DNA from: Mucidula mucida
Lineage: Eukaryota; Basidiomycota; Agaricomycetes; Agaricales; Physalacriaceae
Assembly: GCA_015501055.1 (NCBI GenBank)
Contig: JADNYV010000090.1
Coordinates: 62,001 to 126,000 of the forward strand
Direction: 5' to 3'
Length of the DNA: 64,000 nucleotides
The notes under the pieces were generated by a model. The model ran no database searches. It saw only the letters and a list, made by a program, of their open reading frames with translations, and was not told where the DNA came from. Both the position numbers and the translations under genes were made by a program. Every line of letters starts with the position of its first letter. Position 1 is the stretch's first letter. Shown here piece by piece: positions 4,014-31,457 of this stretch.

Positions 4014-5504
4014 ATGTCTGATACATTTCAAGTAAGCACTGCCCATGACTCGCTTGTGAGTTGCGCTAATTACTTGACAGCTTACCGGGTCAATTTCTGT
4101 GAAATTGAATAACCCCAGCCAGGCTGCGCGTTTGCTAGTTAGAGTGTTTATTACACCTAACCACTCCCTCGATGATTTGATGTCAACTTTCCTCGACGTC
4201 CTTTCCGAGCTCACGACCCCGTTCTACGTGACCGACGACTATGACCCACGCCCAGCATTCCTCGCCGCCGCGGTCATGCAGCAATTCTACACCCCCATGT
4301 CACCCCGACCGAGCTACCAGCCACTCCTTATCCAACATATGGATGTAGTCGTCGCCGCTGTTGTTCCCATCATGTTCCACACCCTCGAATTCTCATTCAC
4401 CGATCCGCAACGACAAGGCTACCATCCAGAAGACGTTGTCGTGCTTTCCACCTTGGCCGCATTACTCCAGCACGAGACTGGGATCGCTGAGTTTGCCGAT
4501 ATTGGGCCGGCGATGCTCACGCTCAAAATCAAGACGATCATCTGGATGTGGCTTGAAGTCTCTGGATCTACGGTCGCCAATGTCCTTGACATCGACATGG
4601 TCAAGATCATCCAGGCGTTGACTGACTACGCACCCACGCGAGGCGCATTGGAGGAGGCCGTCGCCTCGATACCTCGTTCTCTCTTTCGTACGGGGTTGAA
4701 TCACCTCAATGCCGCCGTCAGCGAGTTAGAAAACCCAACCTTCACATTCCTCCCCAACAGATTACTCGCCAATATGCGCGGAATCGGGGCAATCTGCATG
4801 GTCCGCCCCAAGCTTCGCAACTACCTCTTCGGACACGGGCTCATCACCGCGCTCTGTTCTCTTCTCGCTTATGCGATTATCGATGAACCGAGCAGGGTTC
4901 CACCGGAGGAGTGGCCAGTCGAGAAGTATGGCGCATACCACTTTGTCCTCGCCATATCTGAGGAACTTCGTCTTCTTTTGAAAGATGAGGTTGACAAGCC
5001 CCATGCGCTGCTCGAAGCGCTTAACGGACGTCTATTCTACAGTATTCGCTGCGCTCTGCACCACTTTGGTCGCTCGCTACTTACTCCGTGTGGCAGGATG
5101 CCGTTTTTACTTGGATACATCTGGCATTGGTCGATGAAGAGCAGACGCGTTGCGCATAAGGTGCTGATGGAGTTGAACGATATGAGGAGTTTCGTTGGAA
5201 GTTGGAATGAACTCCCACAGATGCCATCTGGGAATTTGCTTACTGTGGGGTGGCATGTCTTTGTCACGCATTTCGACCGAAGCGTGCAGGCTTCGCCGGA
5301 GTCGGGGCGGTTGCGCACTATGTGTATGAATCCTACGGTGAGATTCTTTTTCGCGCGCTGACTTTGTGGTTTGTTGATTGCGGTTTACAGTGCTCTTCGG
5401 CTGGGACGAAACGATGCGAGACCTGTAAGATTCTGGTTGTTTGTTCGGAGACGTGTTTCAGAGCGTTGTATGACGCTGGGGAGCATACTTGCCGACGGGT
5501 GTGA
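4014..5504 (+). CDS. MYND-type zinc-finger protein (three exons)
   Basis: Exons 4014-4031, 4081-5337 and 5391-5504 join in phase to give 462 residues. The first exon codes only MSDTFQ; its donor is GTAAGC and the acceptor is TTGACAG. Residues about 7-410 are a helical region typical of the N-terminal part of agaricomycete MYND proteins, with no named domain that I recognise. The C-terminus forms a Cys/His cluster: C-x4-C-x7-C-x2-C-x5-C-x3-C-x8-H-x-C. This fits a slightly irregular MYND finger, a zinc-binding protein-interaction module. The second intron cuts between the first and second cysteine, so the finger exists only in spliced mRNA. The protein ends four residues after the last ligand, TCRRV. 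Confidence 0.75.
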
Positions 5505-5835
5505 TTTTGATTTACAATCGTATATGTCTCTTTTACTATGTATCCCTACTTCTTTCGCTATTCGATCTATGTAGTATGCAGTTCATGTATCCGTGTTCAC
5601 CCCTTTCAATGGAATATAGTCAATGTTTAACCCAGCATAGCAATCCCATTGAACAGGAGGATTTCGCAGTCGCGAAGACAAAGCTGCATTTCAATGTGTA
5701 CATTGCCACTATGTCGAAGCAATGAGATCACTTCGGCGAGCTATATGTGCGTCGACCACCCCTTCTGGTTTGCACAGTGAAAGGCTAGTGCCGCGAACCT
5801 GTAATGACGCACGCCTAATATGGTAACTTGTCGAT
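5505..5835. other. Intergenic spacer
   Basis: Nothing recognisable lies between the MYND gene and the target duplication of the large transposon. Its right part is ordinary flanking DNA into which the transposon inserted. Confidence 0.5.
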
Positions 5836-5841
5836 CAACAA

Positions 5842-5865
5842 TATGGCCGTTATACTGTAACAAAA
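5842..5865 (+). repeat. Left terminal inverted repeat
   Basis: Begins TATGGCCGTTATACTGTAA and pairs with the reverse complement of 22310-22333 over 24 bases, with mismatches at positions 9 and 20. The 6-bp target duplication CAACAA sits immediately to the left (5836-5841). Confidence 0.88.
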
Positions 5866-6054
5866 GATTTGTAGACACACCCCCAGTTTTGTGTAATTTA
5901 GACGCAGCTGCTTGTTGAATGTAGAAATTGACACTGGTTGAATTTACTTCTTCGTGCGTAACTGCAACAGTCACAGGTATGAAATGGGCAACAGCCGCAG
6001 ACACACGTCGCCTACTAAGTCCCAGAATGCACTCAGGTAGAAGTTGCATTATTC

Positions 6055-6215
6055 AAACTGACACAGGTGACCATTCTGTTATGTGTTTTCCACACAGGTG
6101 TCAGTCAATGCACTGAGATGTTTCCACACAGGTACATGTGTTCGACACAAGTGTCAATTCGCTTACATGTTTCGACACAGGTGTCAAGTTGCTTACAGGT
6201 TTTCGACACAGGTAC
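6055..6215 (+). repeat. Left subterminal array of GACACAGGT-type motifs
   Basis: About six spaced copies of a motif near GACACAGGTGTC or CACACAGGTAC occur within 160 bases, often preceded by TTTC. The same motif in reverse complement fills the right subterminal region. Such mirrored arrays are often transposase binding sites in DNA transposons; that role is inferred. Confidence 0.7.
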
Positions 6216-6217
6216 CA

Positions 6218-6560
6218 TTATAACTGTGGCCACGCCACCTCTACAAGCATAGTCAGGTGACCACGGAGGCCTTCTGAGCCTCCTTGACTCCCACAAACAG
6301 CACCAGAACCTGGCCCCAGGGTATAAGAGTACAGAACAAGTTGAATCAGCCCGATCCGCCCGGTAGCACAGGAATGGTACTTCATATACTGTGGCCATGC
6401 CACCTCTACAAGCATAGTCAGGTGACCACGGAGGCCTCCTGAGCCTCCTTGACTCCCACAAACAGCACCAGAACCTGGCCTCAAGGTATAAGAGTACAGA
6501 AGAAGTTGAATCAGCCCAATCCGCACGGTAGCACAGGAATGGTACTTCATATACTGTGGC
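6218..6560 (+). promoter_or_regulatory. Tandem promoter-like cassette before the transposase gene
   Basis: Two direct copies of a unit of about 173 bases (starting near 6226 and 6399), with the start of a third at 6551. Each unit has GGTATAAGAGTACAG, a TATA-like element, and ends close to GGTACTTCATATACTGTGGC. The transposase start codon is about 90 bases further on. One inverted copy of the unit is found at 19383-19510. A promoter role is inferred from position and the TATA-like core. Confidence 0.55.
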
Positions 6561-6646
6561 ATGGCCACATGCCTGCGCACATTGCATGTCTTTCTTCTGG
6601 GATTAACATAAATCATCCATTTCATTCTTCTCCTCTAGCATTACAT

Positions 6647-8335
6647 ATGGAAGCAATTTCAAATAGTGTTAATCACTTGCTCTCTACCATCATGTCCACT
6701 GGAGCGGATGCCCCATCTATTCATGCCTTTCTTATGGAGTGTCATTGCATCTCTACTCGAGCACGCTTCATTATTGACACCATTCCCAATGCTGATCTGG
6801 ATGCTGCTGAACGGGCTGTAACTCAGCTCGACACCATCCGCTACCTCCTATACCAACTGCATGACCAGATCGCAGATGCTGAGCAGCTCTCCCAGTATGT
6901 TGATGAACGTCTTGGTCCTTTAGAGAACTTCCTTTCCAATCCTCCTCCCCATCCCTCTGATTCCGTGCCTCATGTGTATCAGCCAACTAAAGGACGACCA
7001 AAATATGTTCTTGACTTGCAGAGGGCTTTGCTCCTTCATGATTTGGGAGGCTCATGGGAAGATGTAGGGACAGCTATGGGTGTTAGCCGCATGACAATAT
7101 ACCGCCATTTATCGGAAGCTGGGCTCTCCTCCGCGTGCAAGGAATTTACAGTTATTACTGATGCCGATCTCAATGAATATGTGGCACGGTTCTCTCTCAA
7201 CCATCCATTTAGCGGTGCCGAAACCATACAGGGCCTTCTAGAGACAAGTCAGATTCACCTTCCTCAACGCCACATCCAGCTGAGTCTGTGTCGTGTTGAT
7301 GTAATTGGCGTCATGACCCGGTAAGTCAGGAAGGAAGAAATATCTAACATCAATACTGACGGTGTTATCAGTTGGGGCGCACTGATGCGAAGAGCAGTCT
7401 ACAAAGTCCAAGGAGCTAATGCTCTTTGGCACCATGATGGCAATGAGAAGCTGCGCCCTTGGGGATTCTATGTTCATGGCTGTATTGATGGTCATTTGCG
7501 CCTCCTTATATATATGGAGTGCTCCAGTAACAAGCGGGCTCACACTGTGCGTACACTGTTTCTCAGAGCAGTCTCAATCTTTGGATGGCCAAGTCGTGTT
7601 CATGGAGACTACGGAAGTGAGAATAATGGTGTAGAGGAAGAAATGAACGATCACTGGAGTATCACACATCATGCATACATGCGAGGAAAGTATGTATATC
7701 ATTTCGCTTTCTTTAGAATGCTAACAAATTCTTCTAGATCAGTAAATAATGTACACATGGAAAGAACTTGGCGTGACATTCGGAAAGACTGCCTTAAAAT
7801 CTTTTGCCAAATCTTCTTCTACCTCGAACGTGCGGGAGTTCTAGATATGGAGAATCCAATTCATTGTCTCTGTCTCTTCCTCACCTTTCAATCGCGCATT
7901 CAGGCCTCTTTACAGCAAGCCAAAGATGCCTGGAACCCCCACAAGTTCCGCACAGAGCGCAACCGTACACCGGTACTGCTCTACGAGCTAAGTCGGGAAC
8001 AGGCTATTAATCAAGGATACTGGACTGGCAATATGGGTGATCCAATCAAAGTGGTTGAAGGAAACAACTCGTATGGAATTGATCCTAGTGCACCACTTCC
8101 TTCTGCAAACAAGATGAACTCTGCAGATGATCATCCATCTATGCCACCACGGGAAAGCGGCAATAATTGGGATTCAAATTGCCAAAAGGCAGGTGGCATA
8201 CTACTTAACAAGGATGAGGAGCTCGAGTATGGCAGACAGCTTATGCAGGACTATGACTTCAAGCGGGATGATGGGAACTGGGGCATCAAAGTTTACTGTG
8301 AAGCAGTACAAACTATGACTAGTTGTCTAGAGTAG
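6647..8335 (+). CDS. DDE integrase-core transposase with HTH domain
   Basis: Exons 6647-7320, 7372-7689 and 7738-8335 join in phase to 529 residues. Residues about 116-162 form a helix-turn-helix (GRPKYVLDLQRALLLHD, then MGVSRMTIYRHL). The catalytic core follows. Asp247 lies in HHDGNEK, Asp304 in GDYGSEN and Glu339 in MERTWRD, giving D-34-E spacing. That spacing holds only if the 48-base second intron is removed. The intron is a multiple of three and has no stop, but it has GTATGT, a GCTAAC branch site and CTTCTAG. This is the integrase-core family common in agaricomycete genomes. It probably cuts and pastes the element bounded by the 5842/22333 termini. ATG 6647 follows the promoter-like repeats. 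No stops or frameshifts are seen. Confidence 0.85.
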
Positions 8336-8901
8336 GCCTAGCAGTTGCCTTCATGATAATACCACCATGTGGAGTAAGCAAAAACAGAGAAATATACTTG
8401 GTAATCTCTGTCGTGATTTCAAACCACTGACTCGCAGATCCGGTCTCAGGCACCTTGTCGGGATGATATGTCTAACACTCATCAGGATAAGTTGGTAGAA
8501 GTAGCATAGCATAGTACCTTCATGAGTGTGATTCACTGTGATTTGATGCTCAGGTTCTGCATAGATGAAAGCACCAGGCGCTTTGATTCATCTGGGTGCG
8601 GAAACCAGGAGACAATACAATCCCTTGTGGCATTCCATCCTGGACGATTAATGAACCAGTAAGCAATTGTTTGAAGGTGCTCCACATTTGTGGTTGGCTT
8701 TCTGAAGGGATTGTGAACTGGTTCACCTATGAATGTCAAGCTTCTAGAGCTAGAATTTGGTACTGATTGGCTCAAGCAGGCTGTCTTTTTCTTTGGTCGC
8801 GGTCTAGACTTTTCTTCCTTGGCTAGAGAACTTGAACGTCAGGCTAGATGCGCCTCAAAATTATACAGACTGGCCTTTACATCGCTGAGCCTTACTCTGT
8901 G

Positions 8902-9434
8902 TGATATGATTTGCCACATTTTCACATTTTCAATCTTATCATATCTTATTGGGGGGCTTGTCTTATCAACCAACGGACTGTTTCATCATCTGTTTCGTCA
9001 CCAATCATACTCCTTTTCATTACCGAAGCCGTACTCATGTCGGACACACACCCAACACATGGATGACATCATACATGCCAATACCTCATGGACTCCCTAT
9101 TATATACACACCACCAACACTCATAGCATACATGGTTGTTTCAGTATTATTACTTACATGCAGTTACCACTCATATTTAATGGTTTCATGGACTAGTAGC
9201 ATACAACACTGGGTCAAGGACATGGAGCATTCCTAGTGGAAACGCGTATGGACAAGGAGTCCCAAACACAGACTTACTAGTATATAAGCAGTAGCATAGT
9301 TATCATTGTACTTTAGTTCCAATCTCGTTTATACACCTGGCCTAGCCTAGTTCACAAACACAAACACTTTCTTTTCCTATGTCTCTCTGTGGAACTGGTT
9401 CAGTCTTGTGGCTGGCTATAGTCAGTTGCTAACA
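8902..9434 (+). repeat. 5' LTR of Ty3/Gypsy copy 1
   Basis: Starts TGATATGATTTGCC and ends GTTGCTAACA, with TATA-like AGTATATAAGCAG near 9279. After the first 70 bases it is essentially identical to the 5' LTR at 24138 but clearly different from its own 3' LTR. Confidence 0.9.
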
Positions 9435-9679
9435 GAAGATCAGAACTACCCTCAACCACCTACCACACATCCCTGATTGTTGATCAGCACTTTGCCGTTT
9501 GATCATTGCACATTCCCCTATTCCTTTTCCCTATTTACAGATCGACTGAATCCTACTCCCAGCGCACATCCGCATACATGTGTATTGGTCCCAGTAGTGC
9601 CGGCTAACAGTTAGAGATACCTGCCTCGGGTGCTGGAAGTAGCCGCTCTCACGAGAACAAACTTTTGGCAGTTGCAACC

Positions 9680-10411
9680 TCACATCTGACTCCGAAAGGA
9701 TCGATGTTGTTCTCTCCTACATCCAAGGAGATCATGTAGATGCATGGGTCCAGAACTACTTGGACCAGAACTTCGACGAGGAAGAAGAGGAATGGACAGT
9801 CTCTTGGACGGAGTTCAAGGAACATTTGAAGGAGCAATTTGTGGATTCCAACCTCGCGCGAGACGTGCAAGACCAGATCAAGTGGTTGCGCCAGGGGTAA
9901 GACAGAGGTTCTGCTCACTCAGGCAGAATATTTGAAGGATGACGCATTTGTTGTGTGACTTCTTGAGACCAACGTCAACGAGAAGATCATTGATCAGATC
10001 TATGGCAGCCGAGACGGGTTGCCAGAGAAGTAAAAGGATTGGAAGGCACAGATCATTCAGATTGATCAGCTGTGGAGAAGGCGGACGGCGAGCAAGAGGT
10101 CCGGCATGCAGTCCCGGCCCCAAGCTCCGCAGGCGGCTATATCAAGAGCCAATCCTACAAACCCACTTCCGACGCCGATCACACAACGAGATGCCACCGG
10201 CGTTACCTATGGAGGAGCCGGCAGGCCAATGGACATCAACAATGCACGTCAAAGGGGACTTTGCTTCAGCTGTGGCAAACACGGCCATGTCAGCAGGTTC
10301 TGTCCTAAGAAGGGTCGACCCCAGACGATTTGGGGTCTATGGACCGAAATGAACAATGAGGAGAAGAGGAAGTTGGCCGAAGAGTTGGGTTTTGCGAAGC
10401 TCCCGCAGTAG
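9680..10411 (+). pseudogene. gag remnant, copy 1
   Basis: A coding-like frame at about 9680-9900 (SYIQGDHVDAWVQNYLDQNF) stops at 9898-9900. A second frame (10106-10411) carries the zinc knuckle CFSCGKHGHVSRFC (C-x2-C-x4-H-x4-C), typical of Gag nucleocapsid. Compared with the inverted copy at 37 kb, about 550 bases of the 5' gag region are deleted between GGCAGTTGCA and ACCTCACATC near 9675. The same deletion is in copy 2. Confidence 0.8.
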
Positions 10412-10431
10412 ACGCAGTCCTGCCGGAGCAG

Positions 10432-13400
10432 TTGCCGAGGGAAGAATCGTCAGATGCAGAATCTATTTATAGGACTGGTACTAAAACATCTAAAATATCA
10501 TTGACGACTTCACCACCAAAACCTGCAAAAGAAAGATATGAACCAAACACACCTGAGTGGGTTGCACAAAGGCTAGGAGAGGATGAAGTGCCAAGAGCAG
10601 TGGGAATTTTGAGAGCATGGATGCCGGAGCGGAGAGAGAGAGAAGCGACAGAAGAGAAGGTGATGGTGATCAGAGCGTTGACAAAGGAAGCTGCGGTAGA
10701 AGTTGTAACGGAGTTAAAAAAGTCAAGGAAGTACATCCGGGGAACAAAGGGGCAGGACATGAAACTCCGAGTAACCATAGAGAGCGTACACACAGGCTCT
10801 GAATGGGAAACGAGTGCCCTTCTTGACAGTGGAGCAACGGGTTCTTGTGTCAATAAAGAATTCGTCGAGAGGAACGGACTCCCAATCAAGGAGTTACCGG
10901 TCAAGCTCCCTGTCTACAATGCGGATGGAACCCTAAACGAGGGAGGAGCAATCGAAGGTTTTGTGGAGGTCCGGATGAAGATTGGAGATCACGCCGAAAA
11001 GATCGAGTTGGCCGTCACCAATCTTGGCAAAACAAGTATCTTTTTGGGGCTAGATTGGTTACAATATCACAACCCCACGATCAACTGGACGGAATCCACG
11101 TTGACTTTCAATCGATGCCCAGACCGCTGCGGCTATCTACCCGAGTATGACTCACCAGAAGACAAAGGAGAAGATGTAGAAGAGAAGTTGGAAGAGGGAG
11201 AGCGTTTATTCTGGATGGACCAGGACAGTTATTGCAAAAGCGGTGAAAAGCTGAGATTACAACAGCCTTCATCCGCTGCTGCACCTTACATTGAGGAATT
11301 CTCTGATGTATTTAGCAAGGCGGACTTTGATAAGCTACCGGAGCAAAGACCCTGGGATCACGCGATAGAACTCACGCCTGGTTCCAAACCGGTTGACTGC
11401 AAGGTCTATCCCCTTAGTCCATCCGAGCAGAAGGCATTAGACGAGTTCTTGGAGGAAAACATACACACGGGACACATACGGCCATCAATTTCACCCATGG
11501 CGTCACCATTCTTCTTTATCAAGAAGAAGGATGGAAGTCTTCGGCCCGTGCAGGATTATCGGAAATTGAATGACATGACGATCAAAAACCAATATCCCTT
11601 GCCGTTGATCCAAGAACTTATCGACAAGCTGAAGGAAGCAAAGTGTTTCACAAAGATGGATGTCCGATGGGGTTACAATAACATCCGGATCAAAGAAGGT
11701 GATGAGTGGAAAGCAGCGTTTAGAACAAACCAAGGCCTGTTCGAGCCCTCAGTTATGTTCTTTGGACTTACAAACTCGCCGGCGACTTTTCAATCGTTCA
11801 TGAATCACATTCTGAAGGAGTTGATTGACGACAGACATGTTATCGTTTACTTGGATGATATACTTATCTTTACAAACACTCTCGAGGAGCATAGACAGAT
11901 TGTACGAAGGGTATTAGAAATATTGCAAGTAAATAAGTTGTACTTAAAACCCGAGAAATGTAGTTTTGAGGCACATACTGTAGACTACTTAGGAGTTATT
12001 GTTGGAGGAGGAGAAGTGAAGATGGATCCGGCAAAAGTGGCCGTAGTGAAGGAATGGAAGGAGCCGACGAAGAAGAAGGAAGTACAGTCATTCCTGGGCT
12101 TCTGCAACTTCTACCGATGTTTCATCCGGGGATTTGCGGGAGTAGCGAAGCCATTGACATCACTGACTGGGAAGGGCGAGTGGGTTTGGGGCAGGGAGCA
12201 GCACAAGGCGTTTGAGGAGTTAAAATGGAGGATGACGGAAGAACCCGTCCTGATCGTACCACACGACGATGGCAAGTTTCGAGTCAAGGCGGACTCCTCG
12301 AACTATGCAAACGGGGCGGTTCTTTCCCAGTTTGTTAACGGAAAATGGAGACCAGTAGCCTTTCGGTCTTGCGCGCTGAACAAAGTGGAGCGCAATTATG
12401 AGATCTACGACAAAGAGATGATGGCAATTATGGACTCGATTGACGACTGGAGACAATATCTCCTTGGAGCAAAGGAAACGGTGGAGGTATTTACCGATCA
12501 TCAAAACCTTCAGTACTTTCGGAAGCCACAGAAGTTGAATCGGAGGCAGGCGAGATGGGTTACAGAGTTGGCGGAGTATGACATACAGATGATTCACAAG
12601 CCGGGCAAGACTATGAGAAAAGCTGATGCCTTGTCAAGGATGACAGGCCTTGAGAAGGGGGAAAAAGATAACGAAAACGTTGTTTTGCTAAAACCAGAGT
12701 TTTTTATATCACAAATGCAATTTTCTTTACATACAGTAGCTACACCGGAGGACAAATTACTTAACAAAATTAAACAAAGAAAAGGAAACAAGGACAGATA
12801 CATACAAAAAGCATTAGAAAACAAAGAAAAAGGATGGGAAGAGAAGGAAAATGGACTTATTATATGGAAGGATTGTATTTACATACCGAAGGATAAGGAA
12901 TTGCGGGGAAGAGTTATTGGAATGCACCATGATACACAGCTTGCAGGGCATCCGGGACAATACAAGACTCTTGAATTGATCACACACACCTATTGGTGGC
13001 CCGGAATCAGCCGAGACGTCCGTGAATACGTAGAAGGGTGTCAAAAATGCCAGGCCACAAAGTCACATCGCACGAAGCCGGCCGCACCCCTTCACCCTAT
13101 TGATGTGCCAAGCGAGCCATGAGAGGTAGTAGGGACGGACATGATTGGAGAACTGCCAGAATCGGGAGGATACAACGTGATCAGCACGTTCGTGGACCAT
13201 TTCACAAAGTGATTACGCATCATACCGACACACACCACTCTGATGTCAGAAGGCATGGCCCGCGTCTACCGTGATCGCATTTTTCCCATACATGGGATAC
13301 CACGACAGATAATACATGATCGAGGTCCGCAATATCACTCGTGTTTCATGAAGGAGTTGTACCGGCTGTTGGGCATCGAAGGAAATTTTACAACGGCGTA

Positions 13401-14340
13401 CCATCCACAGGCAAACGGGCAAACAGAACGGTTGAACCAAGAGATAGAACATTTCTTACGGTTATTCGTCAATTACCATTAGAACGACTGGCACAAATGG
13501 CTACCCTCTGCCGAATTCGTTTACAATGATTGGGTACACTCGGCAACCAAAGTCACTCCGTTCTTTGCAGACATGGGCAGACACCCCTACAAAGGCATCA
13601 CTCCGAAAACGGCATTGAGAAATGAGACTGTGCAGGAGTTTGCCGACGGCATGAGGAAAACATGGGACAAAGTAGGGTCGGCATTGAAGATGGCAAAGGA
13701 GGACATGAAACAGTTTTATGACAGGAAACGGACAGAGGCAGTAGGGTACAAGGAAGGCGACAAAGTATGGCTGGAAGGGATGAATCTCAGTACGGACCGA
13801 CCAATGAAGAAGCTCGATGACAAACGCTTCGGGCCGTTTAAAGTGATCAAGAAAGTCGGGACGAGTTCTTACAAGCTCCAGATCCCTCACACGTGGAAAA
13901 GCATTCATCCCGTGTTCAATGAGGCCCTGTTGACGCCTTACCATGAGCCGCAATTTCCAACACAACCCCGAGACACGCGTCCACCACCTGTGCTGGAAGG
14001 AGCCGAACCGGAATGGGAGATTGAGAAAGTGGTTAATTCCCAGAAGTACCGCGGGGGTTTTCAATACAAGGTTCACTGGAAGGGTTATGGCACACACAAG
14101 CAGACATGGGAACCGGCATGCAATCTCAAGAATGCCGACAAAGCTATCCGCAATTTTCACCAACAGTACCCGAACAAGCCAAAACCACCTGTGCTTGCTC
14201 GCATTGAAGTCCCCATGTCGCAGTTTCCATCACATTTATTTCGACCCATGCCACCGCCTGACACCGAACCCCTTGATGTCACACTACCCTCTGCGGCCCT
14301 CATGGAGCGACTCTGGCGCAGAATGGAACTTGCGCCTTAA
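10432..14340 (+). pseudogene. pol (protease, RT, RNase H, integrase, chromodomain), copy 1
   Basis: The frame is open at 10432-13122 (896 residues) and then broken. Visible are the protease LLDSGATG (10819), RT YLDD (about 11850), RNase H segments with FTDHQN (12490), and the integrase HHCC finger (about 12920-13055). The integrase core continues in pieces to 13482, and the rest runs 13573-14340. A chromodomain (EWEIEKVVNSQKYRGGF, then YKVHWKGYG) is at about 14010-14150. In-frame stops at 13120-13122, about 13210 and about 13480 all look like C-to-T or G-to-A changes relative to the sister copies. The chromodomain is the chromovirus mark and normally directs integration to particular chromatin. 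Confidence 0.88.
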
Positions 14341-14351
14341 GGAGGGGGTGA
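14337..14351 (+). promoter_or_regulatory. Polypurine tract, copy 1
   Basis: TTAAGGAGGGGGTGA lies directly before the 3' LTR and overlaps the pol stop. This is the usual place for plus-strand DNA priming. The same tract precedes the 3' LTRs of copies 2 and 3. Confidence 0.75.
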
Positions 14352-14879
14352 TGTTATGAATCACCACATTTTCACATTTTCAATCTTATCATATCTTATC
14401 GGGGGGCTTGTCTTATCAACCAACAGACTGTTTCATCATCTGTTTTGTCACCGATCATACTCCTTTTCATTACCAAAGCCATACTCATGTTGGACACACG
14501 CCCAACACATGGATGACATCATACATGCCGATACCTCATGGACTCCCTATTGGATACACACCACCAACATTTGTAGCACACATGGTCGTTTCAGTATTAT
14601 TACTTACATGCAGTTACCACTCGTATTTAATGGTTTCACGGACTAGTAGCATACAACACTGGGTCAAGGGCGTGGAGCATTTCTAGTGGAAACGCGTATG
14701 GACAAGGAGTTCCAAACACAGACTTACTAGTATATAAGCAGTAGTGTAGTATTATTGTACTTTAGTTCCGATCTCGTTTATACACCTGGCCTAGCCTAGT
14801 CTTATGAATGCAAACATTTTCTTCCTTAGTTCTTGCTGTGGTACCTGGTTGAGTCTCGTGGCTTAGTCAGTCGCTAACA
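14352..14879 (+). repeat. 3' LTR of Ty3/Gypsy copy 1
   Basis: Starts TGTTATGAATCACC and ends CAGTCGCTAACA, followed by the target duplication CTGTG. Confidence 0.9.
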
Positions 14880-17800
14880 CTGTGCAGCTGATTCACTTGT
14901 TTTGGACAGAATATGGTTCCAGTACCAATCATCGTTTGTCGAACCGAGATTAGACATATCTATGAAGAGTTACGCTAGGCTGAGCAGCTGAGAATAGAAT
15001 CTTACCGTCAGGACTATCAGTTTCATGAATCTCATAGTAATCCTCATTGATCTGATATGTTGCATGAAAGCGCCAATTGCCATTCCTACGTGGGAATCAA
15101 AAGGATATTACCGTAAACATCTAGTACACGCTTGAAAGGATGTAAAAATTACTTTCAATTCTGACTCTTCTGCTGGTCTTCTACTTTCTGATCCTTGCTG
15201 GGATCCACAGACACATTCTAAGTGAGTAGTAAATCACTATTCATCATTTAAGAGACACAGCATACAAGCCTTACCTTGCTTGAGCGAGCATGACGGCAAA
15301 GAGCATCCTGCTTATCAGCTTCCCGTTCCTCTGGAGTCACATTATTGGCACCCTTATTGTATTGGTGTTGTTGCTAAATTGAGATGCTCAGCTTGACTCA
15401 ATTGAATACAAAAGCACAGACCTTTGTGAAGTTTCTAATCTTGCGAGCCAAGGCCTGACAGACTTGATCAAGCACTCGGAAGCTGCCCTTGTACAGAGTG
15501 TCGCTTATATCCACAGTATCCAGGAAATCCTGCTCGACGTTTGTGAGGAATCCATCTAGTCCAAACTCACCCGCAACTAGAACATTAACATTCATGTGTT
15601 TTGGATCCTTCAAATCACTGAGAATGAATTCAAACTGTTTGACCAGATCTCGAGTAGGCAGGAGCAGATTTCCCTCAAACAGAGGTTGTGCATGGACATA
15701 GAAGTCAGAGCTCCCAGATCCAATCTGATACTATGTGAGCCTACTGAAGACAAAGGATATTGTACATACCTGAAGTCAATGACGATGTGCTGCGAGTATC
15801 AACAGGAACTCTCAACAACCGCCTGCTACCTCCCAAAGAGTACACAGATATCGCGCTCAAAAATAAAGTAGGAGGCCGCAAATACTGTTTGACCTCTTGA
15901 CAGTTTGCGAATGAAGATGATTGGCAGTAGCGAAGTCTGAAAAGGAGGGGGATGGAAGGTCGGCTAGCCAACTAAGAAATTTGTAGATCCGTGAGAGAAG
16001 CGTAACCGCATTGATAAGGCCACCAGGACCAAGAACTACATTAGCTCAAAACAAAGTCTTGTATGTGGGTTCCGTAAACTCTGTACCAGACATATCAGAG
16101 TGAAGATTGAGCTCGTGTAGCGTATCAAAAATTTTGAGAGTTAGGGCAGTTTGGATTTCGTCAAGCAGACAAATAGGTGCAAGTGTCGGAGGAGTACGGT
16201 TGAATACAAGCTCGGCCCACAAGATTAGTTTTGCAGTAATAGATACCACTGGCTGATATGCGGCGTAACTTTGGCCTACCCACTGCGTAAACGTTGAGCG
16301 TAGAAATTCTCTAGAGATCAAGATGAACATACCCAAGGAACCTTCTTGTTCTCTGGCTGACTCATATGGCAAAGGTAATGATCTGCCATTCAATGAAGCT
16401 CCGGCGCACCATAGTAGGTAGGGCCTGTGTGCGTGGTTGATGGTGTATCCAAAGGAGTAGTATGCGACAATGCAGCAGCAGCTGGTGGATGCGTAGAGGA
16501 CTGTCCTGGTTTGTCATTGATTGGTGAAGTATGGTGTTGTATATGATTAGGCAGAGGTGCATCGTCAGGAAGAAACTATAGATAGATGAGTAACGTAGAA
16601 GAGTAGGAGAGAGCAATGTACATCTGCATCAACAAAGCCTGGCAGATCTGTTGCCTCGGTATCAGAGATATGAGAAAAGAGTGGCGGCTGGAACCAACTC
16701 ATCAGTGATGCACATCCAAGAGATAAATGCATTCGTACTGGTGCCTTTTCCTTGCCCTTGCGTGACTTCTTTGAGTGCGAAGCCTCAGTTGCCATGTGAT
16801 TTGTCTAAGATATTGAATTCAAAATCAGCTATTACAGATGAATAGTATGAGGATTGCTAACCAATAACGACTTCCTTTGTTTTGGCTGCTCCTTCCTACG
16901 TGGAGGCTGTTTCTCATCAGCAGTGGAACCATTACTACTACTGCTAGTGCTCTAAAGGTTATCAGTCCTAGATCAGCAAGTAAGCAAGGAAGTTCTCACC
17001 ATTGGTCGAGTCTGTTTACAATATGAAGACCCGCCTGATGCCTTACAATTCCAAGTCGTTTTGGGTGGTGGTGCCTTCAATCTTATAGTTAGCACGAGCT
17101 CTCACTGAAAAAAGAAAACCTACATCGCTATCAGAGGCACCGGATGATAGAGTCTCTGATGCAGAGTCAGATTTGTCATCATTGATGGCTATGTTCAACC
17201 AGTCAATATCTTCTGTGACCTCGTTATAATCCTTACTGACGAATCTGTTGTATGAGAGATTGGGTTCGGCAGGAAGAAGCGCAATGAAGACAATATTGGG
17301 AAAGTTGTGCTGAAGTTCACGGATAGCAGTATTAGGAGTAGCTCTAACACCAAATCAGATAACAAATGAGCCAATAACAAATGAGCATACTTGCCAAACT
17401 CCTCAGCATTCAGGTTTCGACCTTGCTTGTATGACATGGGACATAGAAGACGTGAGATACCTGGCAGTGTTCGGGTTGAACGTTTAACCTTAGCTGATGA
17501 GGATGGGCCCTGTCCGGATGTCTTCGGCACACACATATGTGCTACCTGACAAGCATGGACAGTGAGAACTCGCCAACCTTTATATGCTGAAAGAGGCTTG
17601 GGAGTAAGAGAAGCAAACTTGGCATTGACGGCCTGCGTAACATCGGCAGCAGTGGCATCTTCATCCAATATGACCTTCCAAACATAGCCCTTATTAGCAA
17701 GAGAGCCAAACCTGGGAAGGTATCAACAACGCGTAAAGGCAGTGAAAAGAAATAACACATACTTAGAAGCGCTAGGCTTCTCATACTCGCCCCTAGCAAG

Positions 17801-19382
17801 TTGCTTGGTACCCTTGATTAAAGCCACAGTATATATGTGTGTCGGTCCAGACTTTGGTGTCTCTGCCTTCTTGCCCGGAGGAGCAGCGGAAGTACCGGAC
17901 ATGTTCCGCTTGCGAGACTTGTAGCCTTCTCCACAACTGGTTTTATTAAGGTTAGCAGCTGCTTGATACTGTAATCAACATGATTAGATCCTGTTAGCTA
18001 ATAAGCATAACGACTGACAGTTTGTGCAGGATGGAACCAAGTCTTAGGCATTTGAGCCTTCGACTTGAGCTGCTCCATGAATGAGTTGCCACCTCCCGCT
18101 GCAGCTATCTCCTCCTCCCACTGATGTGCCTGTGCTGTAGCCTTGAAGGGGGCAGGTCCGAAGTCACAATAGTTGGAGAAGCGCAATGAAGATGCAGCAG
18201 ATGGATTGGAAGGAGGAATCGGGCCACCGGATTGTGAGCCGAAAAGAGTATCCAAAGTAGCAGAGCTGGAATCAGGACCGGGTGCAGGTGCAGGTGGAGT
18301 AGGTATTGGATTTGAGGATGTATGTGATGGTCCCTAAGGGTCAGACATGAGAGATCAAGACCAGTAGATAAATGGAAGTCGTACAGAAACATCGGGCATT
18401 TCATCATGAATGCCATAAGCACACCCACAAACACCACAAGGAGTTCCAGGATTCCAGGATGAGCAAGGTATTGATGTATCAGTCCAAAACTGGTGACAAC
18501 CACAAGGGTTATTCCCATGAAAGTTGTGGCATGTGCCACCCCAGAGCCTCACACGAAGGTGAAGGCGATGCGATTAACATAGTTGTCAAAAACCAGAGTT
18601 TGAGACGGCTATGAAGACCCTCTAATTGAGAGGGCTGCAGAGTTGGACGGGTGGGCATCTATTACGAATAAAATCAGTCTTAGACTCCGCTGCATATTTA
18701 CAGAAATACCTACACTGTTGAGCGAACGGTAACATTGTGAATTGAATTATGGTGTTGTGGATGTAAGACAAGCAAGAAATTGGAAAGTCAAAACGTGCAG
18801 AAGCCCATGGCGTGGCGAGGCTGACTGTGTCATGATCTAGGGCGACATAGGCTAGAGGAAAAAGCTGTTTGCGGCTGTGAGTCCTTGGTTGCTAGCGTTG
18901 CATCAGGTACAAGCAGTCCTAATGCTACATTGTCTGGTCCAGACAATGATCTCGTATGGGCGGCACATCAAGAACTTGCAGTAAGGAACTGCACCTCGTC
19001 AAGACAGAACGAGATGGTACTAGGTGCTGGACTGGAGACGTCTAAGGTGCTCCAGAAACTTACTGCTTATCGGAGGTGCTGTGCTGCAGTATACATACTA
19101 CATCCTAGTGTTTATATTAGTATCACAAGGAAAAACAGAGCACTTATGAAGATTCCAGTGCTGTTTCAGGATTGTTAACGTGCTACAATCATGGAAAAGA
19201 ATATATTGTGCATAGGACGCGATGTGGTCAGAAGTAAAGTAGGAACCTTCCTATTTAGGTATAAGCCGGTTACATGGTCCAGCGGAGACGGATACCCATC
19301 ATCACTAATCACTGTGAATGATTGCAGCAAGTAGTATTCTTATAGACACATATTAGTGTAGGTGTTGGTGTAGCAGGCAAAG

Positions 19383-19510
19383 TACCATTCCTGTGCTACT
19401 GTGCGGATTGGGCTGATTCAACTTGTTCTGTACTCTTATACCTTGAGGCCAGGTTCTGGTGCTGTTTCTGGGAGTCAAGGAGGCTCAGAAGTCCTCCGTG
19501 GTCATCAGAC
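19383..19510 (-). promoter_or_regulatory. Inverted copy of the promoter-like cassette
   Basis: Reverse-complement match to one unit of the 6218-6560 cassette, including the TATAAGAG core and GTAGCACAGGAATGGTAC. It points toward the leftward cargo gene beginning near 18735, about 650 bases away. The cassette may drive both that gene and the transposase gene. Confidence 0.55.
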
Positions 19511-19612
19511 TATGCTTGGGAGTACCAAATAGTGCCTCAGACCTAGATCAACACATTTCAGCTCAGATTAAAGAGTTCAGCAAAGTATTCAGTATACAAA
19601 GAGTCCCATACA

Positions 19613-21810
19613 CTATGCTTCTTTATCATTGCTGCTCAGCTCCTTGTCCTCCTTGTCCTCCTTGTCCTCCTCCTTATCCTCCTCCTTCTCCTTCTTCTCC
19701 AGCTGTTCCTCTCCAACAGACACCCTCAAAGCAGCGAACAGAAGAGATAGTCGCTTCTTCTTATTCGGCATCTTGTTCTCCTTGCCTTTCAAAGAAATCG
19801 CCCTGGGCCGCTTGCATACAGACTTGCCATAAATGACAGGTGTGCGCTTTGTGGCAGGCAGGTTCTCCACTCAATATGCTCTCCACACCGCAGCAACAAA
19901 GAGATCAAAGCTGTATGGTCCTAACGTCGTCTTATGCTGAACCTTTAGTATGTCTTCCTCCGGTAACATGTCAAGAAACGACTTGAGTAACATCAGCAGC
20001 ATGTACATATGAGAGACTTGAACTTACCTGGATCGTCACACCCCAAGACGTCGGGATTTTGGCAGTGATGGGAGTATAAACATTGACCTTTTTTGAAGAT
20101 CCCGGTACTCGTGGAATGGCCAGACGATAGATAGGGACTTGCTTTGTCTGTGTACCTGGTTGAATATGAGCAATCTGTACTGGTGGTTCTAACACAGGCT
20201 GATAAAAGGGTGTATCATTGTCATGCTCTGAAACTATGTAAGGAACACTTGAAATATAAGAGAAACTCAACCATACCTTGGATAAGCGAAGCAGTACCGT
20301 TATCGCATAAGGTAGCTTTTGGATTGAGCAGGTTCTGTTCAAGTACACTCAAGAATGTGTCACGTTTGAGACAAACCGTGGCGCGACAATAGATGGGTAT
20401 AGTGCGCAAGAAGCGAATATGAGCATCCTCATTAAAGCAAAAAGCACCATCCTCTAAGACATTGGTAAGTTGCGTAGTCGCCAGCATGTGAAGACGCCCA
20501 AGCTGATACTCCCGATGGGTATAAACGAAGTGATCCCAAAGCTCTGAGTTGGTCGCAATACAGTAAATCGGCATATAGGGATGAATGCGAGCTATCTAGA
20601 GTATGTCGGTCGTTTCTTGAGCGCTGTATCTATTATTAATAGCCTGATTACCTTTGACAGCAACAAAGACTGCTGTCATATCCTTGTTCTCAATAATTGT
20701 TTCCCGCCAGGCTTGTAGCGCGCGCAACATAGCCTCAGGTTCTAGATGCCAGACCGGTCCATGGGATTTTGACCAGATGTAGTTCCAGATCTAATGTAGC
20801 AAGGTCAGCTATAAGAAGGTACATAAATAGTGTGTTAACGTACCACAGAACCAGGCTGTAAATCATCCTGAGTACAGACATGGTGGAGACGCATGACGTG
20901 GAAGGAAATCATGACATTATGGTCAAGTACAATGAGGGTCCAATCCGGACGACGGAAAAAGAGCTGAATGGAAGCCTGCCCAGATGAGCCGGGTGGACCA
21001 TGAAAGAGGTGGTCGGGAATCGTGAAAGTTTTACTCTTTGCGCCGCGGGAGACTGCAGGAACGGAGGTCATCTCATTGAACTCCTTAGTAGGAATCCAAA
21101 GTAAGTGTCCCTTGAGCCCAAAGCAGATGTGAATGAGGAACTACATCGTCTCTTAGAATGCAGCAGATGCAAGAAGTTGAGAACCTTACTGTTGAGACCC
21201 CAAATATAAGTTCTTTCCCACAAGCGACGGGAAAGAGCTGTCCGGTGATTTGCAGTCCATTCAGAATAGCGGCGGCCGACTTGTTCTTGAGATGTGAGTA
21301 CTTGAAATGCAACAGTTAGAAGCAATTTACAGAAAACAAACTTTCTTACCTCATTCAGCAACAACCTAGGTAGTTTATTCAATGGTTCTGAGACTTGTGA
21401 TGACGGCTAATAAGATAGAACATAAGGTGATGTACAGCAAAATGTAGAGAAGGGAGCTCTACCTTTGGGCATCGAGTACAACTTGCAATGGTTGCGCACT
21501 TTGAGGTGGTCCAGGCGGACTTCTTCTTCTTCTGGGTGTTTCGTGGTTTGGCAATCAGAAGAAAGCAAGGGTCCTTCGGGGGTGGACTGTGGATTGTTAC
21601 TAACTGGCGAGCACTAGAAGGGCACACCAGAGTATCCGGAAATACACCAAGACGGCCTGCAGAATGATTTGATATGGATACTACCACACAAAGCGAGTAA
21701 AACTCACCATACTTGGCAGGGTTACTAGCAGGCAGCCCGGGAGATCCCATATCAGAGGCATGTAGCCTCGCTTCCTTCATGAATTTCTTGAGGACCATGA
21801 ATTCGGGCAT
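19613..21810 (-). CDS. Second cargo gene of the transposon, function unknown (at least eight exons)
   Basis: ATG 21810 opens MPEFMVLKKFMKEARLHAS. Exons 21708-21810 and 21463-21656 join in phase. Further phase-compatible GT-AG exons follow, containing PSSQVSEPLNKLPRLLLNE, the block YSHLKNKSAAAILNGLQ, then FLIHICFGLKGHLLWIPTKE. Later exons hold IPDHLFHGPPGSSGQASIQL (about 20990), IYCIATNSELWDHFVYTHRE (about 20560) and IYRLAIPRVPGSS (about 20130). The C-terminus is a Lys/Glu/Asp-rich tail ending ELSSNDKEA at 19613. There is a Cys motif at residues about 85-100 (KCATIASCTRCP). I do not recognise a family. Its promoter would lie in the right subterminal array, which suggests it is element-borne and co-regulated with mobility. 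No disrupting stop was noticed in the exons I followed. Confidence 0.55.
19637..19700. repeat. Simple repeat coding an acidic/basic tail
   Basis: Runs of CCTTGTCCTC and CCTCCTTCTC repeat here. On the minus strand they encode alternating Glu, Asp and Lys at the end of the 19613-21810 gene. It is prone to slippage. Confidence 0.7.
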
Positions 21811-21894
21811 GAGAGACAATGATGGTGGTTGAGATCAACGTTGCGTCACCGCGAACTGATCAGATCACCTGACATGTGCTGGTTGTCTTGAGTT

Positions 21895-22260
21895 CGAACC
21901 TGTGTCGAAACAATACCTGATTCTTACCGGCACTTGGACCTGTGTCAAAGTTGCACCTGCACTCCCGCCTGTGTCAAAATTTCACGTCCTTGAAAATAGG
22001 GTGTGTCTATCTCATTTCAGTCTTAGAGACCTGCGTTCAATTTACTACCTGTGTTCATCCCAAAGTAGTTTGTGTTGCGACCTGTGTCTGTTTATTCATG
22101 CATGTTGAGCCTGTATCTGTTACCCGAATTGACCCAATCAACATGTGTTTTCTCAGACTGAGAATCAGAACGTGTGTGTTCTTGTAGCTAGAATTTTGTA
22201 CCCTTGCGTTTGAGATGCAGATGTGTGTCTGACATGACAAATTGGGGGGGAACATGTGTC
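21895..22260 (-). repeat. Right subterminal array of ACCTGTGTC motifs
   Basis: Multiple spaced copies of CCTGTGTC and diverged versions lie here, in the opposite orientation to those at 6055-6215. The array ends shortly before the right terminal repeat and also covers the presumed promoter of the leftward gene starting at 21810. Confidence 0.7.
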
Positions 22261-22309
22261 AGTCCGCTGATATTTTGCCTGGGTATGTCTATTCTATTGC
22301 TAAAATCAT

Positions 22310-22333
22310 TTTTATTACAGTATACCGGCCATA
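22310..22333 (-). repeat. Right terminal inverted repeat
   Basis: Read on the minus strand it begins TATGGCCGGTATACTGTAA, matching the left end. The duplicate CAACAA follows at 22334-22339. Confidence 0.88.
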
Positions 22334-22396
22334 CAACAATGGCAAAGAACACATTTTGACATATGCGTCCACTGTGATTGGCCTTTGTTGAAAGTG

Positions 22397-22405
22397 TATA
22401 AAGGT
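22397..22405 (+). promoter_or_regulatory. TATA-like box of the FunK1 pseudogene
   Basis: GTGTATAAAGG lies about 165 bases before ATG 22563 and just outside the transposon's right end, a sensible place for a core promoter. Confidence 0.4.
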
Positions 22406-22562
22406 CTGTCTTTAAGGGCTAGTGGTGCCTGTTCTCTCCTTGCTTCCTGCACCCTCCCGCTGACTGAAAATATTGTTCAGCGCATCTTGCCCACTCGACG
22501 ATCCTCCTTCCTGTGATCACAACGCTTCTGGTATTCCACACAGTATTCCCCTTCTACATATT

Positions 22563-24146
22563 ATGAAGTCCGTAAACCAGCAGGTTGGGCCTACAGTAGA
22601 AATCATCCAGTTTAATGAGGCTCCGTATGATTGTGAGTACTATGACAAGCTTATCAGGGAAGACCTTCATAGTAGTCGTGTCATGTTGCATGCCGAGAAG
22701 TTCTTAGAGCTTGTCTGCGACATCACAATGCCCTGCCACCAGAACATGCTCCACCGCATTCTTGACGACCAGATCTTCCGGCGCCTGCTGACCGAGTTAC
22801 TTGCCGAATGTGATGCTGGTTTAGACGAACCGGCGCTTGACGAGAGTATCGCCTCGCTTTATAATAGAGGCCTGGGGCTGCTCAATGTCTTGGATCCTTT
22901 GTCATGCAATGCTTCCGCAGCGACGTTGACATTTTGTGTCGACACTGAGAATGACCTATGTGACACAGAAGCAGAGCTTCCTTCCCACCAATCCCAAGAC
23001 CGGTCCAGCGTCCTTAGGGACGAAGTACTGTTTTCCCCAGCAGCTAGGATAACCGCCCAGGTGCAATGTGGCCGATACACGATAGCAGAGCTCTCCAAAA
23101 CTCTCCTATGTTCCCATGTCATCCTCGCACTATTCAACCATGACAGCTTTCAAATGCACTACTACGATCGCGGTGTCATCACTGTATCCTCAGCTGTTAG
23201 CCTTTCCAGCTGCGAGGGCCAGGAACTCTTCATCCTCATGCTCATGGGTCTTTGTTGTCTCACTTCCAAAGGTCTGGGACAGTGGAATGTTCTGGACGAG
23301 TCACAGAAATTTTACCTGAAATTAAGGGGCAATATCTTGGAGGACTCATCTAAGGAACACCGCAGAATTTTCCATGGCACGACTCTACGCGTCGGCGCCG
23401 AGACATATACCCTCCAGGAAATTCTCTTTTGACAGCCGGAAATCATTGGTTGCGCAACTTGTGTCGTAGCAGCCAAGGATCGTAACGGGAAAGAAGTCGT
23501 CCTAAAGATCAGCTGCCCGGTTGAAGGACAACAGTCGGAAGTGGATCTCATAGAGCAGGCTCGAGCATATGCATCTCACGACGACGGACACAAGTGGGTG
23601 CTCATGCACCTTCCTAGAGTCATGGCGTCTGTCGATATTGCGCCAGATCCCGAATCGGCGCCCACCGTCTTTGCCAATTTTTGAACAACAAGGATACAAA
23701 GTGGGCGGGAAAACGGAAGTTGTCCTACGAGAGCCGTGCTCTTTGCATCATAGTCGTTGAGAAGCTACATACACTCCTTAGCATTGCAAGCCCTTCGACA
23801 CACGCACAGATTTTCTTTGATGTGTTACAAAGTATGTCGGTCTATCACTCTGCTCGTCGTTTACTGATTGGCTTGCCCTCAGCTCACAAGTGGCTCTACG
23901 ATCATTTGCGTATTCTCCACCGCGATATCAGCATAAACAACATCATGTTCCGTGTTAATGAGAATGGTAACTACTTTGGAGTCCTAAATGATTTTGACCG
24001 CACCTCTCTTCGTGCAGACTTAGAGTCACGGAGTCCTATCTCAATGCGACAAAAAGGCATGCCGCCGTTCATGGCCATGGACCTACAAAACCTCTACACT
24101 CAAAATTTTGATGTTAAGCACCTATATCACTACGATCTGTTATGAA
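22563..24146 (+). pseudogene. FunK1-type fungal protein kinase, broken and truncated
   Basis: The frame opens at 22563 (MKSVNQQVGP). An in-frame TGA at 23430-23432 falls in the region that begins the kinase fold (TLQEILF, then QPEIIGCATCV where the family usually has GRGT). A frameshift follows near 23682. Beyond it are the conserved HRD-like LHRDISINNIMF and the DFD of VLNDFDRTS, with an in-phase intron at 23832-23882. The frame ends where a Ty3/Gypsy LTR begins at 24138, before the rest of the C-lobe. FunK1 kinases are expanded in agaricomycetes and are often linked to mating or signalling, but this copy cannot make a full kinase. I did not find the missing 3' part beyond 38759. Confidence 0.8.
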
Positions 24147-24671
24147 TTGCCATATTTTCACATTTTCACATCTTATCATATCTTATCGGGGGCCTTGTCT
24201 TATCAACCAACGGACTGTTTCATCATCTGTTTCGTCACCAATCATACTCCTTTTCATTACCGAAGCCGTACTCATGTCGGACACACACCCAACACATGGA
24301 TGACATCATACATGCCAATACCTCATGGACTCCCTATTATATACACACCACCAACACTCATAGCATACATGGTTGTTTCAGTATTATTACTTACATGCAG
24401 TTACCACTCATATTTAATGGTTTCATGGACTAGTAGCATACAACACTGGGTCAAGGACATGGAGCATTCCTAGTGGAAACGCGTATGGACAAGGAGTCCC
24501 AAACACAGACTTACTAGTATATAAGCAGTAGCATAGTTATCATTGTACTTTAGTTCCAATCTCGTTTATACACCTGGCCTAGCCTAGTTCACAAACACAA
24601 ACACTTTCTTTTCCTATGTCTCTCTGTGGAACTGGTTCAGTCTTGTGGCTGGCTATAGTCAGTTGCTAACA
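24138..24671 (+). repeat. 5' LTR of Ty3/Gypsy copy 2
   Basis: Starts TGTTATGAATTGCC and ends GTTGCTAACA, 534 bases. It matches the 5' LTR of copy 1 almost exactly after its first 70 bases. Confidence 0.88.
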
Positions 24672-24916
24672 GAAGATCAGAACTACCCTCAACCACCTAC
24701 CACACATCCCTGATTGTTGATCAGCACTTTGCCGTTTGATCATTGCACATTCCCCTATTCCTTTTCCCTATTTACAGATCGACTGAATCCTACTCCCAGC
24801 GCACATCCGCATACATGTGTATTGGTCCCAGTAGTGCCGGCTAACAGTTAGAGATACCTGCCTCGGGTGCTGGAAGTAGCCGCTCTCACGAGAACAAACT
24901 TTTGGCAGTTGCAACC

Positions 24917-25648
24917 TCACATCTGACTCCGAAAGGATCGATGTTGTTCTCTCCTACATCCAAGGAGATCATGTAGATGCATGGGTCCAGAACTACTTGG
25001 ACCAGAACTTCGACGAGGAAGAAGAGGAATGGACAGTCTCTTGGACGGAGTTCAAGGAACATTTGAAGGAGCAATTTGTGGATTCCAACCTCGCGCGAGA
25101 CGTGCAAGACCAGATCAAGTGGTTGCGCCAGGGGTAAGACAGAGGTTCTGCTCACTCAGGCAGAATATTTGAAGGATGACGCATTTGTTGTGTGACTTCT
25201 TGAGACCAACGTCAACGAGAAGATCATTGATCAGATCTATGGCAGCCGAGACGGGTTGCCAGAGAAGTAAAAGGATTGGAAGGCACAGATCATTCAGATT
25301 GATCAGCTGTGGAGAAGGCGGACGGCGAGCAAGAGGTCCGGCATGCAGTCCCGGCCCCAAGCTCCGCAGGCGGCTATATCAAGAGCCAATCCTACAAACC
25401 CACTTCCGACGCCGATCACACAACGAGATGCCACCGGCGTTACCTATGGAGGAGCCGGCAGGCCAATGGACATCAACAATGCACGTCAAAGGGGACTTTG
25501 CTTCAGCTGTGGCAAACACGGCCATGTCAGCAGGTTCTGTCCTAAGAAGGGTCGACCCCAGACGATTTGGGGTCTATGGACCGAAATGAACAATGAGGAG
25601 AAGAGGAAGTTGGCCGAAGAGTTGGGTTTTGCGAAGCTCCCGCAGTAG
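24917..25648 (+). pseudogene. gag remnant, copy 2
   Basis: Same broken arrangement as copy 1: the coding-like stretch stops at about 25135, and the CCHC zinc knuckle lies in the 25343-25648 frame. It shares the 5' deletion. Confidence 0.78.
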
Positions 25649-25668
25649 ACGCAGTCCTGCCGGAGCAG

Positions 25669-30640: not shown

Positions 30641-30649
30641 AGGGGGTGA

Positions 30650-31177
30650 TGTTATGAATCACCACATTTTCACATTTTCAATCTTATCATATCTTATCGG
30701 GGGGCTTGTCTTATCAACCAACGGACTGTTTTATCATCTGTTTTGTCACCGATCATACTCCTTTTCATTACCAAAGCTGTACTCATGTTGGACACACACC
30801 CAACACATGGATGACATCATACATGCCAATACCTCATGGACTCCCTATTGTATACACACCGCCGACACTCGTAGTACACATCGTCGTTTCAGTATTATTA
30901 CTTACATGCAGTTACCACTCGTATTTAATGGTTTCACGGACTAATAGCATACAACACTGGGTCAAGGGCGTGGAGCATCCCTAGTGGAAACACGTATGGA
31001 CAAGGAGTCTCAAACACAGACTTACTAGTATATAAGCAGTAGTGTAGTATCATTGTACTTTAGTTCCAATCTTGTTTATACACCTGGCCTAGCCTAGTCT
31101 TACAAACGTGAACACTTTTTCCTTAATTTCTGGCTGTGGTACCTGGTTGAGTCTCGTAGCTTAGTCAGTCGCTAACA
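30650..31177 (+). repeat. 3' LTR of Ty3/Gypsy copy 2
   Basis: Starts TGTTATGAATCACC and ends GTCGCTAACA, 528 bases. Its first 280 bases (to 30929, ending TTTAAT) reappear in reverse complement at 31178-31457 with about one difference. Confidence 0.85.
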
Positions 31178-31457
31178 ATTAAATACGAGTGGTAACTGCA
31201 TGTAAGTAATAATACTGAAACGACGATGTGTACTACGAGTGTCGGCGGTGTGTATACAATAGGGAGTCCATGAGGTATCGGCATGTATGATGTCATCCAT
31301 GTGTTGGGTGTGTGTCCAACATGAGTACAGCTTTGGTAATGAAAAGGAGTATGATCGGTGACAAAACAGATGATAAAACAGTCCGTTGGTTGATAAGACA
31401 AGCCCCCCGATAAGATATGATAAGATTGAAAATGTGAAAATGTGGTGATTCATAACA
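31178..31457 (-). repeat. Partial 3' LTR of copy 3
   Basis: Covers only the LTR start (minus-strand TGTTATGAATCACC) through TTTAAT. It joins the end of copy 2's LTR at 31177/31178, forming a 248-bp-spaced inverted repeat with 30650-30929. Confidence 0.85.

Follow-up and report, generated by a model that had tools for sequence, protein, structure and literature searches.

A probable IS3EU-superfamily DNA transposon of Mucidula mucida and a cargo gene found again in a second element

We analyzed a 64,000-nucleotide stretch of DNA from Mucidula mucida (Agaricales, Physalacriaceae), here called the window, which is C938:62001-126000 of a 59.9-Mb genome in 1047 contigs (C938 and the other C-numbers below are contigs of this genome). 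The segment 5842-22333 of the window was confirmed as a single unit, and it is very probably a cut-and-paste DNA transposon of the IS3EU superfamily, 10.5 kb long, with a Gypsy retrotransposon nested inside it. Besides its transposase it carries two genes, B and C, the second of which is also found in another element of the same genome. The features of the locus, by window position and strand, are as follows:

5836..5841, no strand: left copy of the target-site duplication, CAACAA, single at two uninterrupted paralogous sites
5842..5865, plus: left terminal inverted repeat, starting TATGGCC; end identical in the copies on C1026 and C939
5842..6241, plus: left subterminal array, 10 inward ACACAGGT-like motifs by count
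6223..6552, plus: 165-bp unit in two tandem copies 5' of the transposase; an inverted 139-bp copy lies at 19380-19518, near the 3' end of gene C
6647..8335, plus: transposase gene, 529 residues, Pfam rva_4; exons 6647-7320, 7372-7689 and 7738-8335; D247, D304 and E339
8902..14879, plus: nested chromodomain Gypsy long terminal repeat (LTR) retrotransposon, outside the DNA transposon proper; duplication CTGTG at 8897-8901 and 14880-14884
15158..18399, minus: gene B, CPB85DRAFT_1438068 (P0006, 761 residues), no known domain and no relative found
19613..21810, minus: gene C, CPB85DRAFT_1438069 (P0001), a family without a name; in-frame stop at 20598
21934..22333, minus: right subterminal array, 8 inward ACACAGGT-like motifs by count
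22310..22333, minus: right terminal inverted repeat, finishing GGCCATA; end identical in the C1026 copy
22334..22339, no strand: right copy of the target-site duplication, CAACAA, read from the sequence

The two terminal arms are 24 bp each and 92% complementary, with two mismatches, and the termini read TATGG..CCATA in both the window element and its C1026 copy. With up to one mismatch allowed, the left 400 bp contain 10 inward-pointing copies of ACACAGGT (0.8 expected) and the right 400 bp contain 8 (0.7 expected), where 1000 first-order resamplings gave no more than 5 on either side; outward-pointing copies number 1 on the left and 0 on the right. Given these counts, the mirrored arrays are real, and they are likely binding sites of the transposase. 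A scan of the whole window for inverted ends with 6-bp repeats gave 131 pairs; as the pairs inspected were inverted Gypsy copies and palindromic 6-mers, this count is unsuited as a chance estimate.

Joining the two flanks (301 bases) and searching the genome with them gave 12 matches. Uninterrupted relatives of the target were present at C998:10643-10900 (98% over 258 of the 301 bases) and C474:22074-22331 (97% over 258 of 301), each with a single CAACAA and no element, and both read CGATCAACAATGGCAAAG. A site on C188 (84%) is likewise uninterrupted, with a different second base in the duplication. The flanks themselves, 5691-5841 and 22340-22489, are repeated sequence, present on C998 and C474 at 97-98% and at four more places at 83-84%, among which the C188 site was read. 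At C1026:114934 we observed a 1.9-kb derivative in which position 7516 is fused to 21943, with the ends of the window element, its own perfect 6-bp duplication (CATTTG), and some 50-70 bp doubled near the right end; this copy is shown to be a non-autonomous deletion derivative. The empty C998 and C474 sites, together with a C1026 copy that has its own duplication, mean that the boundaries of the element are not due to chance. A preliminary description, made from the window alone, had proposed the inverted ends with their two mismatches, the CAACAA duplication, and the mirrored arrays, and all of these stand.

Other traces of the element are a copy on C939 and a 132-bp transposase fragment on C796. 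The C939 copy has its left flank in common with the window element (98.8% over 482 bp), and is therefore an allele or a duplicated region; it is interrupted at position 7722 by a different Gypsy insertion, and the C796 fragment has the same Gypsy junction.

The transposase frame, for which splice sites were picked by hand from GT-AG pairs, is open and carries all three catalytic acids, as the preliminary description had it; none of the three varies among 11 aligned proteins, made up of the query and 10 of its 71 relatives. These 71 relatives (E <= 1e-10) come from many agaricomycetes and are annotated as plain integrase or hypothetical protein, in keeping with the earlier remark that such enzymes occur as unplaced open reading frames (ORFs). 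Those in Mycena, Marasmius, Coprinopsis, and others are ~42-53% identical over >90% of the query. The fold of a 52%-identical relative was also consulted, and the recombinase is a DDE enzyme with an integrase-type core. Between the transposase stop and the Gypsy there is an open frame that looks coding-like (8717-8900, plus strand), which may be a lost exon or a product of chance. A further rva_4 transposase lineage of the same genome, 30-36% identical, is found at C804:42494-43077, and no credible element ends were seen in the stretch fetched around it.

The nested Gypsy measures 5,978 bp, with LTRs that begin at 8902 and 14352 and are 89.8% alike, and encodes protease, reverse transcriptase, RNase H, integrase zinc-binding, and chromo domains. 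It lies ~0.3 kb past the annotated end of gene B. Because it is nested inside the 16.5 kb, the DNA transposon itself comes to 10,509 bp, so that the 16.5-kb size first given has to be revised; neither the Gypsy nor the in-frame stop of gene C figured in that account. More copies of this Gypsy family, some of them inverted, occupy 24136-38759 of the window and are mostly 86-94% identical to the Gypsy sequences on C1026 and C939.

The window copy is old and decaying. Observed/expected CpG is 0.58 in the transposase, 0.54 in gene B, and 0.64 in gene C. By comparison, the flanks have values of 1.05 and 0.85, the Gypsy has 0.77, and the second element, on C460 and described below, has 0.81. Between C938 and C939, positions 5360-7722 differ at 47 places, 40 of them transitions and 25 touching CpG. 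The CpG depletion and the transitions would fit methylation and silencing, and this decay hints at a silencing pressure that the cargo might oppose.

Gene B matched only itself in a protein search (best 7,996 candidates scored), and it was not found elsewhere in the genome, where all 8 matches fall on C938. Neither gene gave anything significant against Pfam, NCBIfam, or PDB sequences. An OGFOD2-like match for gene B was rejected (E 0.017 with one exon, gone with the full protein), as was DUF6831 for gene C (E 0.071, under the family cut-off), and weak TRPV3 rows in the PDB-sequence search (best E 0.055) were taken as chance. A Cys/His-rich open stretch (18385-18530, minus strand) immediately precedes the annotated gene B start and suggests a lost or misannotated N-terminal metal-binding domain of this protein.

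For gene C, a protein search gave 5 matches among 5,556 candidates, namely, itself, three records from Hymenopellis radicata, and one metagenome protein. The H. radicata relatives are on contigs of 12,478 and 192,360 bases; two records share the shorter contig, and one of these covers only 6% of the query. No Hymenopellis protein was among the 71 transposase matches. The H. radicata relatives read through position 20598, at which gene C has its in-frame stop and which the public gene model sidesteps by making the stretch an intron; two further stops fall where the alignment enters a model intron. Among 79 residue differences from H. radicata, some of which stem from the alignment crossing introns, 33 are consistent with C-to-T or G-to-A changes on the M. 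mucida side and 8 with changes the other way; the remaining 38 match neither pattern or both. Structure prediction with AlphaFold, using four sequences, gave a predicted local distance difference test (pLDDT) value of 30.

The gene C protein P0003 of H. radicata had 8 matches in the genome. Six of them lie in the window element and one lies on C460 (35%); the eighth, at C1026:105027, covers just a P0003-specific stretch. In the reverse direction, the C460 gene C had matches on C460 (5) and in the window (2) and nowhere else. Each of the two gene C loci detected in this genome falls within a TA..TA element that has a 6-bp duplication. When 18.5 kb of C460 were scanned for inverted TA..TA ends flanked by such a duplication, one strong pair emerged, at 61655/73087 (duplication CAACTC), together with one weak pair. 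The element so bounded (C460:61655-73087) is 11.4 kb long, with ends that match over 25 bp with two mismatches and termini TATGG..CCCTA. It contains an alpha-kinase gene, gene C, and a transposase directed opposite to both, with gene C located between the other two; gene C thus runs opposite to the transposase in both elements. The preliminary expectation of conserved cargo is therefore supported for gene C and not for gene B, which had no relative in the searches made.

The two elements are only distantly alike. At the nucleotide level their comparison gave nothing significant, and in a translated comparison gene C aligned along its length. A profile comparison related the two transposases with a probability of 96.7% (E 4e-10; 27% identity over 165 columns), and the C460 enzyme has Asn in place of the second catalytic Asp. 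The alpha-kinase of C460 scores 32.4 bits against a cut-off of 21.3, with one stop within the translated stretch, and its C-terminal exon alone scores 19.9 bits; no alpha-kinase was recognized in the window element. Five alpha-kinase loci exceed the cut-off, and two of them (C460 and C327, the two read with wide flanks) are within 7 kb of a C460-type transposase; none of the 11 matches to that transposase is at the other three. From these matches those on C430 and C327 were read, leaving out C312, C185, C342, C61, and C561. The C430 copy of the C460 element starts from the identical terminal base but adjoins another flanking sequence, and an internal deletion has removed its gene C. On C327 (55236-59608, L075), an alpha-kinase gene and the decayed gene of a transposase with 42% identity to the C460 enzyme run in opposite directions; gene C was not detected, and no ends were recognizable in the 10 kb fetched. 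The duplications CAACAA, CATTTG, and CAACTC and the 6 bp beside the C430 end all start with CA in one orientation, a post hoc observation; as there are only four sites, a target preference cannot be claimed.

Starship elements have a tyrosine-recombinase captain gene as their hallmark, and they do not fit here, since the recombinase found is a DDE enzyme. The 6-bp duplication does not agree with the Kyakuja-Dileera-Zisupton (KDZ) group, for which Kojima 2025 gives 7 bp in Kyakuja and 8 bp in Dileera (PMC12730594). Complete IS3EU families, according to Kojima 2023, always have TA..TA termini and usually a 6-bp duplication (PMC10045372). In M. mucida, we find TA..TA in the window, C1026, and C460 elements, 6-bp duplications in each (CAACAA, CATTTG, and CAACTC), and an integrase-type DDE core, so that the early label of an IS3EU-like element with exact ends was apt. 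These ends, duplications, and an integrase-group transposase are likenesses to IS3EU/GingerRoot; the window element is large and intron-bearing and has accessory genes. The agaricomycete integrase proteins of Pfam rva_4 (PF24764) are homologous enzymes, known here from protein records without genomic context.

A close parallel is offered by the TET+ IS3EU elements of rusts. According to Kojima 2025, they have 6-bp duplications and TAYGG..CCRTA ends, their terminal repeats exceed 30 bp, and their TET/JBP gene has the transposase on one side and an oppositely directed alpha-kinase gene on the other (PMC12730594). The window termini fit this pattern, and the 6-bp duplications, the DDE transposase, extra genes directed opposite to it, and, in the C460 element, an alpha-kinase gene are shared with the rust elements. 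In contrast, no TET/JBP gene was recognized in the Mucidula elements; gene C is between transposase and alpha-kinase on C460, gene B is between transposase and gene C in the window, and the host is an agaricomycete, whereas the hosts named in the paper are Pucciniales and Tuber indicum, with the TET+ lineages listed for Agaricomycotina being without IS3EU (PMC12730594).

Several points weigh against reading the element as a cut-and-paste IS3EU transposon. The repeats are 24 bp in the window and ~25 bp on C460, short of the >30 bp reported for rusts, and the CCCTA at the right end of C460 departs from CCRTA. Copies are few (C938, C1026, and C939, the last possibly an allele or duplicated region, plus the C796 fragment), those found give no sign of recent movement, and the class assignment is a provisional one made from termini, duplications, and enzyme type. 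Even so, with the ends, duplications, unoccupied sites, open transposase frame with three acids, and non-autonomous derivative all observed, we consider a cut-and-paste IS3EU transposon very probable. In such a mechanism, the integrase-fold transposase, led by N-terminal helix-turn-helix domains, would bind the subterminal ACACAGGT arrays and cut at the TATGG..CCATA ends; the cut ends would be joined to target strands 6 bp apart, and repair would yield the 6-bp duplication.

What the cargo means is less certain. A tentative reading, to which we give somewhat less than even weight, is that gene C encodes an accessory protein dedicated to the IS3EU elements of mushrooms and belonging to a new family or fold. 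It would have been retained by IS3EU lineages that separated long ago, in one of them at the position of the rust TET demethylase, and would be needed for escape from silencing or for assembly of the transposition complex. As part of the main explanation, gene C is inferred to be a standing accessory gene of these fungal elements, perhaps with an anti-silencing or DNA-binding role. It could instead be that genes B and C are host or foreign genes acquired by chance and meaningless to the transposon. The lack of any relative or second genomic locus for gene B, the in-frame stop in the window gene C, and the loss of gene C from the C430 copy and the C1026 derivative would agree with this; we nevertheless think it rather unlikely, as gene C is present in two elements that share no significant DNA similarity and have transposases with ~27% identity over 165 columns, runs opposite to the transposase in both, and has both its genomic loci inside such elements.

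It would also be conceivable for gene C to encode a very divergent TET/JBP dioxygenase, for example of Kojima's PE type, and for the elements to be ordinary TET+ IS3EU. On C460 it does occupy the TET/JBP place reported for rusts, and PE-type enzymes are barely recognizable by sequence, as that paper reports (PMC12730594). No Tet_JBP match was found in four gene C proteins, however, nor in the genome, in a search whose positive control likewise gave none, and by eye no HxD/HxE is conserved across four aligned members (one from C460 and one a fragment), which makes this improbable in our estimation. Least credible to us is that the segment consists of several nested transposons, so that gene B or gene C would belong to a separate element. 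One nested element, the Gypsy, is demonstrated here, and gene B has no counterpart on C460, but in our reading none of the 25 longest of 56 inverted repeats frames either gene as a unit, and on C460, too, gene C lies between the ends of the element there.

IS3EU elements that carry extra genes are described from fungi in Kojima 2025 (PMC12730594), and IS3EU has been counted in Ganoderma and Phlebopus (PMC8955403 and PMC12411881), so the early suggestion of an undescribed fungal lineage is not supported. The class is thus already known, also from fungi. In the literature searched we came across neither this particular family nor the genes it carries, nor a gene C shared by two lineages. That literature was open-access work on IS3EU, on IS3EU of Agaricomycetes, and on transposable elements of M. 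mucida, which, among the papers listed, held no report of the window element; most subscription journals and Repbase were outside its scope. The analysis assigns orphan agaricomycete integrase-like ORFs to an element that is exactly delimited, bears subterminal arrays, and has a proven target duplication, and it makes gene C a cargo gene family that can be named and traced, with the shared cargo the point worth following. Should gene C turn out to have a standing accessory role, one gene position in fungal IS3EU would be filled by no fewer than two alternatives, TET/JBP and gene C, and the role of such cargo could then be tested by comparison.

Finally, the end sequence of the window element occurs with zero mismatches in five places in the genome, all on C938, C939, and C1026. 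Near matches are background, with 36 at up to three mismatches (including the 5 exact ones) versus 30 for the reversed pattern. Among 20 loci around exact or near matches, a TA..TA pair with a 6-bp duplication was found only in two loci on C141, and it is unrelated, being 438-440 bp long and away from the matched end motif. These two occurrences (L050 1815-2252 and L051 1814-2253) have perfect 20-bp inverted ends, TACATCATAACGG, between TATATA repeats, and are perhaps a small non-autonomous transposon of another family.

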